Source of the DNA: a virus
DNA: 64,000 nucleotides
Direction: 5' to 3' (one strand)
IMG/VR virus record: IMGVR_UViG_3300003322_000128
Coordinates: 1 to 64,000 of that record
The number at the start of each line of letters is the position of its first letter. Position 1 is the stretch's first letter. Shown here piece by piece: positions 17,973 to 32,410 of the stretch. The notes beneath the pieces were generated by a model that ran no database searches, had not been told where the DNA came from, and was given only the letters and a program-made list of their open reading frames with translations. The position numbers were made by a program, and so were the translations under genes.

Positions 17973-17978
17973 TTTGGC

Positions 17979-18005
17979 GGGGTTTCGTAAAGAGACCCCA
18001 AGCTT
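17979..18005 (+). promoter_or_regulatory. Stem-loop/AAGCTT intergenic element
   Basis: GGGGT (17979-17983) pairs with ACCCC (17995-17999); the loop contains TTCGTAAAG. AAGCTT at 18000-18005, then an AAGGAG. Confidence 0.82.
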
Positions 18006-18027
18006 TGTCTACATAAGGAGAGATATA

Positions 18028-18681
18028 ATGCGCGAGTACCCTAAGATTGATAATCTGTACAAGCGTAATCCTGAGAAGAAGTCAGAGCTTCTTGTCGGTA
18101 CATATACCCGGCCGGAATTTTCTCTGATTGATGCTTGGGATGTTACGGAGAAGGTTGACGGTACAAACGTTCAGCTGAAGTTCCACAGGGTTTTTAACGG
18201 CTCGTTTGATATTAATGGGCGTACCGAGCGCGCGCAGTTTACCATTGGCCAGGAGAATTTTCTTGAGGAGCTTGGTGACAGCATTCGCGGTAAGGTTCTT
18301 CACACCATTAATGCATTCAACCTTGATACGCTGACCATCTATGGTGAGCTATATGGCCCAAGGATTCAGTCTGGTGGGAATTATTCTACTGAGCTTGGAT
18401 TCCGGGCATTTGACATGATGGTGAATGACAAGGTATGGTTGGCACCTGAGGATGTTCGTAAGAACGCCGAGTACTTTGGTGTTGAGCAGGTTCCTAACCT
18501 GGGGACAATGACTACTGAGAGTATCTTTCTGATGGTTGCCGGGGGATTTAAGTCCACCTTTGCAATCAATGAAGATTATGATGCAGAAGGTGTTATTGCA
18601 AAGCCGCCGTGGAATCTGTATGACCAGCGTGGAGAGCGGGTTATGTTTAAGCTCAAGACGTGCGATTTGAAGCATCTGTAA
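18028..18681 (+). CDS. RNA ligase, T4 Rnl2-like, 217 aa
   Basis: Nucleotidyltransferase motif I is EKVDGTN with the adenylated lysine at residue 42. Motif III-like GELYG, IIIa-like FRAFDMMV, motif IV EGVIAKP and motif V FKLKT follow. The length suits a minimal Rnl2-type adenylyltransferase domain. It would seal 3'-OH/5'-phosphate RNA nicks, for example in tRNAs cut by host nucleases. The ATG at 18028 follows AAGGAGAGATATA. Confidence 0.9.
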   Translation: MREYPKIDNLYKRNPEKKSELLVGTYTRPEFSLIDAWDVTEKVDGTNVQLKFHRVFNGSFDINGRTERAQFTIGQENFLEELGDSIRGKVLHTINAFNLDTLTIYGELYGPRIQSGGNYSTELGFRAFDMMVNDKVWLAPEDVRKNAEYFGVEQVPNLGTMTTESIFLMVAGGFKSTFAINEDYDAEGVIAKPPWNLYDQRGERVMFKLKTCDLKHL

Positions 18682-31302: not shown

Positions 31303-31743
31303 ATGCTGAACCAATATATTTGCCTAAATTGTTACAATGGCAATTGCGACGAGTGTGCTGATAAGCACAAGGTTTTCCCTGATTGTCAGCATGAATGTAA
31401 CAGGCAGAAGGAAGAGGCTCGGAAGATGAACGTCCACAAGCTTGACGTAGTTGCCGAGAATGGTGTACCGTTCCGAGTGGTGGTGCTGGTTGACGGGAAG
31501 TCTGAGAATTTCAACACGGCTTCCTTGAGCAATAAGAGTCTGGTAGAGTTCTATGACAGGCGCTATGACTTCACCCCTGATGGTCAGTTTACCGGTCATC
31601 GTATCTACCTTGACACTGCTCTTGAAGCCTCTGTGTACACCATGAGCTTTGACCAGCCTTCTTGGCAGATGGACTCTCGTACTTCCCGAACGGTTCGCGA
31701 TTGGTTGCACTTCCTGGTTGACAGGGAATCGGTTCGGGTGTAA
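31303..31743 (+). CDS. Protein with N-terminal Cys/His cluster, 146 aa
   Basis: Residues 7-32 carry CLNCYNGNCDECADKH and CQHEC, a probable zinc site. The remainder is alpha/beta (FRVVVLVDGKSENF; TSRTVRDWLHFLV). Overlapping its 3' end is the -35 of the next promoter. Family unknown. Confidence 0.72.
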   Translation: MLNQYICLNCYNGNCDECADKHKVFPDCQHECNRQKEEARKMNVHKLDVVAENGVPFRVVVLVDGKSENFNTASLSNKSLVEFYDRRYDFTPDGQFTGHRIYLDTALEASVYTMSFDQPSWQMDSRTSRTVRDWLHFLVDRESVRV

Positions 31744-31746
31744 GGT
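31718..31746 (+). promoter_or_regulatory. Promoter of the long untranslated RNA unit
   Basis: TTGACA (31718-31723), 17-bp spacer, TAAGGT (31741-31746). The transcript would start near 31753 and run to the terminator at 32116-32190. Confidence 0.72.
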
Positions 31747-31849
31747 AGTAACACGTAAAACGGTGGGGCAAGGTGAGATAAGTTCCCCAAACTCCACCAA
31801 GCTTTCTAAACTGCCGATGACCCCGGAATGAAAATTCCGGGCGAGGACA

Positions 31850-31924
31850 GCCCCAATAGCATAATCCCGGCGAATGCGCCTTTAGAATAGTAGGAGATAG
31901 CAGGTTCAAATCCTGCTGGGGTTG
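31850..31924 (+). tRNA. tRNA-like element, anticodon not assignable
   Basis: AGCCCCA pairs with TGGGGTT as an acceptor, GCAT/ATGC as a D stem, and GCAGG-TTCAAAT-CCTGC is a perfect T arm. The anticodon arm region (CCT...AGG) gives at best a 6-nt loop with a mismatch and no U33. It may be a degenerate tRNA or a tRNA mimic. Confidence 0.5.
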
Positions 31925-32115
31925 CTAGGACAAATCTTCTGTTAGATTGTGTCCTAAGTAAAATGACCGGCTAGCTCGTGTGCAGGAACGCTAAGGGTGC
32001 TTTCGCGGGGATTCAGTTAGAATCCCACCGAACGTTTAAAGGTCCTGTTCCTGTACTAGGCGAGGGTTAATGGGCTTAGTAGGAAATCCCCGAAAAGTCA
32101 CTGATAACAATTACC

Positions 32116-32190
32116 GGGTAGCCCAGTTAAATAGCGAGGTGGAGACGAAAGTCGTAGAAGCCAATGACCTATTTAACTGGGCTTTTTGTT
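32116..32190 (+). terminator. Long-stem terminator of the RNA unit
   Basis: AGCCCAGTTAAATA pairs with TATTTAACTGGGCT (14 bp) across a structured loop that contains an ACG/CGT-type inner hairpin, followed by TTTTTG. Confidence 0.78.
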
Positions 32191-32221
32191 TGACCAAAAT
32201 CGTCTGAAGGAGACAGTAAAC

Positions 32222-32410
32222 ATGATGATTCCCGCTCCCCGTGTTGCTGAGCCTACCGTATTGAAGTGCCGTGAGGATGGCTGTGAAGGCACTTATGAGC
32301 CGTACCGAGATGGTTCGCTGTCCTGTTACTGCGGCAGCCGCTCTAACCTCACTGTGGACGATGTAGAGATTCTGAACATGACCATTGTGTATGAGCGTAG
32401 CGACTGCTAA
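32222..32410 (+). CDS. Zinc-ribbon protein, 62 aa
   Basis: CREDGCEG and CYCG about 18 residues apart form a zinc ribbon, followed by a beta/acidic part. AAGGAGACAGTAAAC precedes the ATG pair. Function unknown. Confidence 0.68.
   Translation: MMIPAPRVAEPTVLKCREDGCEGTYEPYRDGSLSCYCGSRSNLTVDDVEILNMTIVYERSDC

Follow-up and report, generated by a model that had tools for sequence, protein, structure and literature searches.

A candidate structured non-coding RNA with a tRNA-like core and a kink-turn-like arm in Streptomyces phages

A stretch of viral DNA of 64,000 nt (positions 1 to 64,000 of the 98,783-base IMG/VR virus record IMGVR_UViG_3300003322_000128; hereafter the window) carries near its middle an element that resembles a tRNA deprived of its decoding end and attached to a kink-turn-like arm. 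The relatives of the window are Streptomyces phages of the Stanwilliamsviridae, Loccivirinae. As a tentative proposal, the phage encodes here a structured non-coding RNA that has a mimic of tRNA at its core and would act in trans, perhaps as a competing decoy. Read 5′ to 3′, it consists of a promoter-like site, a hairpin followed by CAAGCTT, the kink-turn-like arm, the tRNA-like structure (TLS), a further hairpin, module D and a terminator-like hairpin; its specific part starts at 31811. The copy in IMGVR_UViG_3300003320_000087 is identical by eye. The features in the window are as follows.

31718..31746, + strand: promoter-like site TTGACA-N17-TAAGGT, overlapping the 3′ end of the upstream open reading frame (ORF)
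31762..31804, + strand: 5′ hairpin GGTGGGG/CTCCACC, then CAAGCTT; a generic intergenic element, probably not specific to the RNA
31811..31847, + strand: kink-turn-like arm of type I, with C-helix CC/GG, 3-nt bulge GAU, tandem GA/GA, 8-bp stem and GAAA tetraloop
within 31848..31924, + strand: TLS acceptor CAGCCCCA/TGGGGTTG, 8 bp, with G·U at the third pair
within 31848..31924, + strand: remainder of the TLS, with D arm GCAT..ATGC containing GG (4-bp D stem) and T arm GCAGG-TTCAAAT-CCTGC (5-bp stem)
31878-31899, + strand: variable region of the TLS that replaces the anticodon arm
31926..31956, + strand: hairpin TAGGACA-AATCT/AGATT-G-TGTCCTA, directly 3′ of the TLS
31965..32068, + strand: module D, with outer GACC/GGTT, CAGGAAC/GTTCCTG and GGGATTC/GAATCCC stems
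32120..32192, + strand: terminator-like end of the unit, a 15-bp inverted repeat with a 34-nt loop and a T-rich tail

A sequence-only reading of the window had proposed here an untranslated, heavily structured RNA in a gene-free stretch, and the gene-free stretch is borne out. No convincing gene lies in 31744-32221, between an ORF ending at 31743 and an ATG at 32222; only short mechanical ORFs start there (frames of 30, 45 and 74 aa), and none of 24 annotated relatives has a coding sequence (CDS) over the arm or the TLS. The 441-nt stretch is more stable in fold than 100 of 100 shuffles (z −3.89), in keeping with a heavily structured RNA, from which the first hairpin must be withdrawn as a specific part. 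The hairpin read as a terminator stands, its stem growing from the 14 bp first reported to 15 bp (32120-32134 paired with 32169-32183). A simple terminator scanner that accepts only loops of 3-8 missed it, and an antiterminator considered for this last hairpin finds no support in the fold.

Thirty TLS loci were read (27 isolates, the window and two IMG/VR contigs, with Forrest and Jada left out). Because the search started from the 5′ acceptor strand and a T loop, the real test is the pairing of the 3′ strands. The acceptor is paired over 8 of 8 positions in all 30 loci, and thus differs from the 7-bp acceptor of a tRNA; its third pair is G·U in 28, the exceptions being Phredrick and Emma1919. 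The T stem is paired 5/5 in 28 loci, with DekoNeimoidia and IMG7790 as exceptions. The D-loop GG and a TTCRANT T loop occur in 20/20 distinct TLSs; the scripts sought these features, and no locus failed. In the window, the tRNA-like part with paired acceptor and T arms and no usable anticodon loop, as the sequence-only reading had described it, is recovered at 31848-31924. It reaches 31.7 bits against the Rfam tRNA model (cut-off 29) and gives no ARAGORN call.

The anticodon region is the variable part. At 31878-31899 of the window no more than 3 bp with a 10-nt loop can be drawn by eye, in place of an anticodon stem, a 7-nt loop and U33. Annadreamy, Beuffert and TunaTartare have no real anticodon arm, Gilson and Comrade show a mini-hairpin CUC-GUAA/GGAA-GAG, and Megan, Faust and Blueeyedbeauty have 5-bp stems with 6- to 8-nt loops (all by eye). 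Seven Wakanda-type loci possess a full anticodon arm with a 7-nt loop, C33 and GCA or GTA. ARAGORN calls a tRNA at some loci and none at others, and record annotations vary between tRNA-Leu, tRNA-Cys, tRNA-OTHER and nothing, so that automatic annotation hides the element. An encoded CCA is shown by only one of the 10 window tRNAs printed, and its absence at the TLS is thus uninformative.

Compensatory changes and shuffle tests support the pairing of the conserved helices. Over 20 distinct TLSs the acceptor is 100% paired, a value that none of 1000 shuffles reaches (shuffle mean 80%), and the T stem is 98% paired, again with 0/1000 shuffles as high; five of the eight acceptor pairs change on both sides. 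The element occurs in three types, I, II and III. In the arm and TLS of types II and III (14 sequences, 35 pairs), 97.3% of the cells are paired, 12 of the pairs show double changes, and the covariation score is 0.334 versus 0.177; none of 500 shuffles equals the alignment on four of five measures, cells with double changes included, and shifting the partners by 1-3 columns lowers the pairing to 32-48%. Unconstrained RNAalifold gives the arm a C-helix, a main stem and two hairpins (22 pairs, eight with double changes); arm folds from single sequences often depart from this covarying fold. Two sequence models were built, R1 from types II and III only and R2 from type I. R1 scores type I copies at 55.1 bits (Sham), 53.1 (TunaTartare), 47.8 (Annadreamy) and 45.5 (both the genome of the window and record G001), and these copies are the top matches of their records. 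In 22 records, R1 gives 151-167 bits to three copies of the types it was built from (II/III), the best other match being an ordinary tRNA-Ile at 31.3 bits. In the reverse direction R2 finds the record of BillNye (G005) at 51.8 bits. By these models, types I, II and III are one family, the reverse test being the weaker one.

The arm obeys the sequence rules of kink-turns, which served as the yardstick: a 3-nt bulge, tandem G·A and A·G pairs, and C and NC helices are found at the sequence level, and the arm is accordingly termed kink-turn-like. Its 5′ strand reads NNU-GA in 30/30 loci (TGA in 24 by script and, by eye, in six type I arms that fell outside the distance filter of the script), its 3′ strand reads GA-GG in all 30, and exactly one nucleotide separates GAGG from the acceptor in every locus. 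Type I arms, that of the window included, end in a GAAA tetraloop.

Modules beyond arm and TLS are less constant. The hairpin 3′ of the TLS is present in four of the seven type I loci read; elsewhere it is absent or replaced, by a putative H-type pseudoknot in type II and by a terminator-like hairpin with a short T tract in type III. Module D occurs in six of the 30 loci (the window, TunaTartare, Faust, IMG37510, Moab and Patelgo), and RNAalifold gives it 32 pairs, 12 with double changes, with no shuffle control. The pairs CAGGAAC/GTTCCTG, GGGATTC/GAATCCC and AGGACA/TGTCCT, pointed out from the window alone, are present and show compensatory changes in relatives; in the alignment used, the GGGATTC/GAATCCC stem is partly disrupted in Moab and Patelgo. 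Module E (AGGTCGAATTGCC..GGCTAACCT) was matched by pattern in 21/30 loci and was not found in the window; it precedes the TLS in some phages and follows it in others, and its outer stem is lengthened by 2-6 more pairs in 11 different forms. It has no Rfam match and looks like a mobile domain of RNA whose outer stem covaries and which may form a pseudoknot (L001 3360-3450, L034 1490-1590, L031 1497-1590). A further upstream module (ACCGTGAGGTCCG...GGGTAGCCAAAACCGTG) is common, by eye, to L011 1045-1150 and L060 1365-1450. In Phredrick and Emma1919 an HNH endonuclease gene begins two bases past the acceptor (L055 1657-2091, L056 1657-2091); these HNH-bearing phages are without the G·U pair and the usual downstream pseudoknot.

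The distribution of the element follows the phage group. BLAST finds it in 38/38 listed phage records (29 phage names) whose capsid protein shares at least 86% identity with that of the window, and neither match list contains any of the other 98 among the 136 capsid-bearing records; the capsid comparison covers the best 60 of the 136. A type I query matched nine phage records of the group over arm and TLS, and a type II query 29 others, of which the Wakanda-type ones match only over the arm and the first TLS bases. The records read are classified as Loccivirinae, apart from Francob, Byblos, Ankus and DekoNeimoidia, which give no subfamily. In sister-group phages (capsid about 78-82%) no element was found in the records searched with R1, the best score being 31.3 bits. 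A candidate homologue there, to which R1 aligns over its full length (E 5.7e-8 in a 3.8-kb search), was rejected: ARAGORN calls it an ordinary tRNA-Ile(UAU), and no arm is seen. In bacterial genomes the type II core pattern has no match and the type I pattern seven, the best R2 score there being 14.7 bits. Among viral contigs, GGGCGAGGACAGCCCC occurs in 21 stretches, of which R2 backs three (L008, L009, L010). Of 12 stretches with TGATGACCCCCGGATT, reading showed eight to be without the other parts of the element. A match in Arthrobacter phage Seahorse is a similarity of the T arm only, in what looks by eye like an ordinary tRNA whose anticodon loop has 8 nt.

Closely related phages differ sharply inside the TLS. 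Ten phage pairs were compared (loci including L051/L057 and L050/L058). BillNye and Circinus are 98% identical over 400 nt upstream and 100% identical in the arm and downstream, against 62% in the TLS interior. Muntaha and Wakanda share 99% in the arm and 99-100% downstream, against 69% in the interior; in Gilson and Megan an arm at 100% stands next to an interior at 35%. Byblos and DekoNeimoidia show the reverse (arm 81%, interior 95%), and the remaining pairs show less contrast. BillNye-like and Circinus-like interiors are each found in both Wilnyevirus and Wakandavirus. Such a pattern looks like an exchange of alleles under selection for difference, or like conversion.

A transcription unit of its own is suggested by promoter-like sites. 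The promoter claimed at 31718-31746 is present as TTGACA-N17-TAAGGT, and a looser TTGAC-N17-TA pattern matches within 520 nt upstream of the TLS in 23/30 loci (shuffle control: none). Across the 64 kb of the window, the + strand holds 13 comparable matches, and a strict sigma-70 scanner called no promoter (0.4 expected). The first hairpin (31762-31798 plus CAAGCTT) is not special, because the same element recurs between genes of this phage. Its copies are scattered over 1140-35225 of the window (e.g. 31025, 31268, 31798, 32439, 32714); of 38 CAAGCTT or CCAAGCTA sites in the window, the first 36 kb hold 34, and 31 of these come directly after a hairpin of 5 or more outer pairs, without a shuffle control for the hairpins. 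The CAAGCTT count expected from base composition is 3.5 in 64 kb.

How might such an RNA work? The sequence shows a tRNA-like domain, one nucleotide downstream of the kink-turn-like arm, in which the D-loop GG, the T loop, the 8-bp acceptor and the 5-bp T stem are retained. The parts kept are those read by proteins that bind the elbow or the acceptor, and the part lost or varying is the decoding end read by the ribosome. In most of these phages the transcript would start at its own promoter and fold into a compact unit. The RNA may be bound, and possibly trimmed at its ends, by tRNA-handling proteins. With less certainty, it may compete by occupying a host factor that attacks tRNAs, or limits them, in the course of infection, a role that would explain the exchange of interiors between near-identical phages. 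Action in trans is proposed because promoter-like sites precede the TLS in 23/30 loci, because terminator-like hairpins follow it (window, type III), and because the downstream genes differ by group, with a DNA methylase in annotated Wakanda-type records and other small genes elsewhere. A decoy is preferred because interiors are swapped, because decoy use has been proposed for the tRNA-like domain of YrlA (PMC7790460) and because whole tRNAs are reported to serve phages as a means of evading tRNA-cutting defences (PMC11555353). The sequence-only reading had thought of a decoy for host nucleases. As bait for enzymes that cut the anticodon loop this is unlikely, the loop being missing or variable; a decoy for a factor that grips the elbow or the acceptor fits. 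It is tempting, if doubtful, to go further and see a counter-defence RNA, in which a mimic without decoding end, mounted on a kink-turn arm, forms a cassette swapped to match the tRNA-targeting toxins of the hosts. If the RNA is a decoy, the blunting of tRNA-targeting immunity by phages would become testable in laboratory Streptomyces with defined natural alleles.

Several observations weigh against this proposal. Counting double-change pairs in the acceptor or the T stem alone does not set them above shuffles (608 and 830 of 1000 shuffles as high), so the signal sits in the matching of letters and not in the number of variants. In the joint alignment of types II and III the count of further pair types, the fifth measure, does not stand out (498/500 shuffles as high), and type I alone (six sequences) is too uniform for a good test, with two double-change pairs and 281/500 shuffles as high. 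R2 has no match at E ≤ 1e-4 in G002 and G004. Confinement to one phage clade means that the distribution says little on function; seven of the 30 loci are without a match to the promoter pattern, though TunaTartare and Sham show a near match by eye; and upstream of the arm Muntaha and Wakanda are only 47% identical, so that the swap is clean on one side only. Among the seven full anticodon arms of Wakanda-type loci, four are annotated as tRNA-Cys, so that some copies could be odd tRNAs, and ARAGORN calls the Sham copy tRNA-Phe.

Other explanations account for part of the same evidence. The TLS could be a processing signal, cut by RNase P and the 3′ tRNA nuclease to free the flanking modules (hairpin, D and E) or to make an upstream 3′ end, much as the 3′ end of MALAT1 is made via a tRNA-like element. 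Retention of elbow and acceptor with loss of decoding agrees with this, as do modules that are exchanged and reordered on both sides; the constant one-nucleotide spacing between arm and acceptor (30/30) suggests, on the other hand, that arm and TLS work as one unit, and an ordinary tRNA, of which these phages carry many (PMC5764925), would do equally. Processing is considered unlikely. Still more improbable is a real but odd tRNA gene inside a leader, Cys-like in Wakanda-type phages and decayed in other genera. The 31.7 bits in Rfam and the full anticodon arms in 7/30 loci, where ARAGORN calls tRNA-Cys or tRNA-Tyr, speak for it. Against it stand the C that replaces U before the anticodon, an anticodon alternating between GCA and GTA among relatives, the 8-bp acceptor in 30/30 loci, and an acceptor and T stem that remain fully paired where the anticodon arm has gone, which decay would not have preserved.

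A G·U wobble at the third acceptor pair is a determinant for alanyl-tRNA synthetase. A mimic that, like tmRNA, receives alanine and has its use outside normal decoding would account for its presence in 28/30 loci while pairs 1, 2, 5, 7 and 8 double-change or wobble. Yet pairs 4 and 6 are equally invariant, the stack measures 13 bp, and the acceptor is followed by C or U, whereas alanine tRNAs usually carry A there; we rate charging slightly below the odd tRNA. Least probable of all appears an RNA scaffold that self-assembles through palindromic hairpin loops in the manner of ROOL or GOLLD. The hexamer UUGCAA, together with UCGCGA or UCUAGA, is found in 12/12 distinct type II/III arms; however, at least two palindromic hexamers arise in 38% of shuffled-arm trials, so that the loops are not above chance as proof of dimers, and type I arms end in a GAAA tetraloop. 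The competing mimic thus keeps our preference, as a tentative reading.

Other genes of these phages handle or encode RNA. An RNA ligase (PF09414) lies at 17974-18681 of the window, with a KVDGTN motif by eye. The domain exceeds its cut-off in 18/18 Loccivirinae-like records and in 0/10 sister-group records; it is also found in two distant element-less records (G018, G019) and weakly in a third (G017), so that the ligase is clade-level context only and not proof. RtcB was found in none of 12 records searched. The tRNA-array region (L148 1-1500, about 82-83.5 kb of G001) holds more odd structured-looking non-coding stretches between tRNAs and tmRNA. Papers on BE phages, PMC5764925 and PMC10690885 among them, mention tRNAs and one tmRNA. 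No description of the present RNA appears among the literature titles and abstract openings listed, most subscription journals being outside their scope.

Comparison with known RNAs places the element apart from each of them. Against Rfam, only tRNA reaches its cut-off, marginally in the window, and among copies from nine sources only two give even a tRNA match at E ≤ 1; together with conservation and covariation, this agrees with the suggestion of a new phage non-coding RNA. The parallel suggestion of a permuted or degenerate tmRNA finds no support. tmRNA (RF00023) likewise joins a tRNA-like acceptor and T arm without a usable anticodon, and its acceptor has G·U as third pair, as in the element; the element differs by its full D stem and 8-bp acceptor. 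A separate tmRNA exceeds the Rfam cut-off in 12/13 records searched, 34-41 kb from the element in the eight Loccivirinae records concerned, the only miss being the 98.8-kb record of the window itself, which is shorter than its relatives of ~126-131 kb. At the element RF00023 has no match, weaker listed ones included, and ARAGORN calls no tmRNA there. As to a tag frame, no tmRNA model matches and short mechanical ORFs of 30-45 aa are present.

YrlA (RF02553) is likewise a non-coding RNA with a tRNA-like domain. The order of its arms is permuted; the element, by contrast, has its D arm ahead of its T arm. As a candidate it was rejected: none of eight records reaches 69 bits, the best score being 37.8 near 66 kb in Annadreamy, and no listed match falls at the element. 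A Ro60 (TROVE) protein is encoded in 9/12 records searched (7/10 Loccivirinae), by a gene of 539-568 aa at about 68-82 kb in relatives and 43 kb in G002 (e.g. L013, L014); Annadreamy and BillNye possess the element without a TROVE match. With tRNA itself (RF00005) the element shares the acceptor, D arm and T arm, the window scoring just above the gathering cut-off. Unusual 8/5 tRNAs do exist, such as bacterial tRNA-Sec. The anticodon arm of the element is, however, missing, shrunken or variable, with C33 in Wakanda-type loops, and the tRNA-like part is joined to a kink-turn-like arm and lies within a longer non-coding stretch that is itself structured.

GOLLD and ROOL are ornate RNAs of phages, frequently located close to tRNAs, whose function is unknown (PMC12286853). 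Neither Rfam family has a match at the element, which is smaller and modular and lies tens of kilobases from the tmRNA region. In the Loccivirinae one TLS copy is kept across the whole phage group with its anticodon part left free, and to our knowledge few such tRNA-mimic cases occur in double-stranded DNA (dsDNA) phages. The tRNA-like structures of plant viruses and mascRNA exemplify tRNA mimicry by RNAs that are not tRNAs, with an altered anticodon arm; the element differs from them in its origin from a dsDNA bacteriophage, its internal position in a longer stretch and the kink-turn-like arm attached to it.
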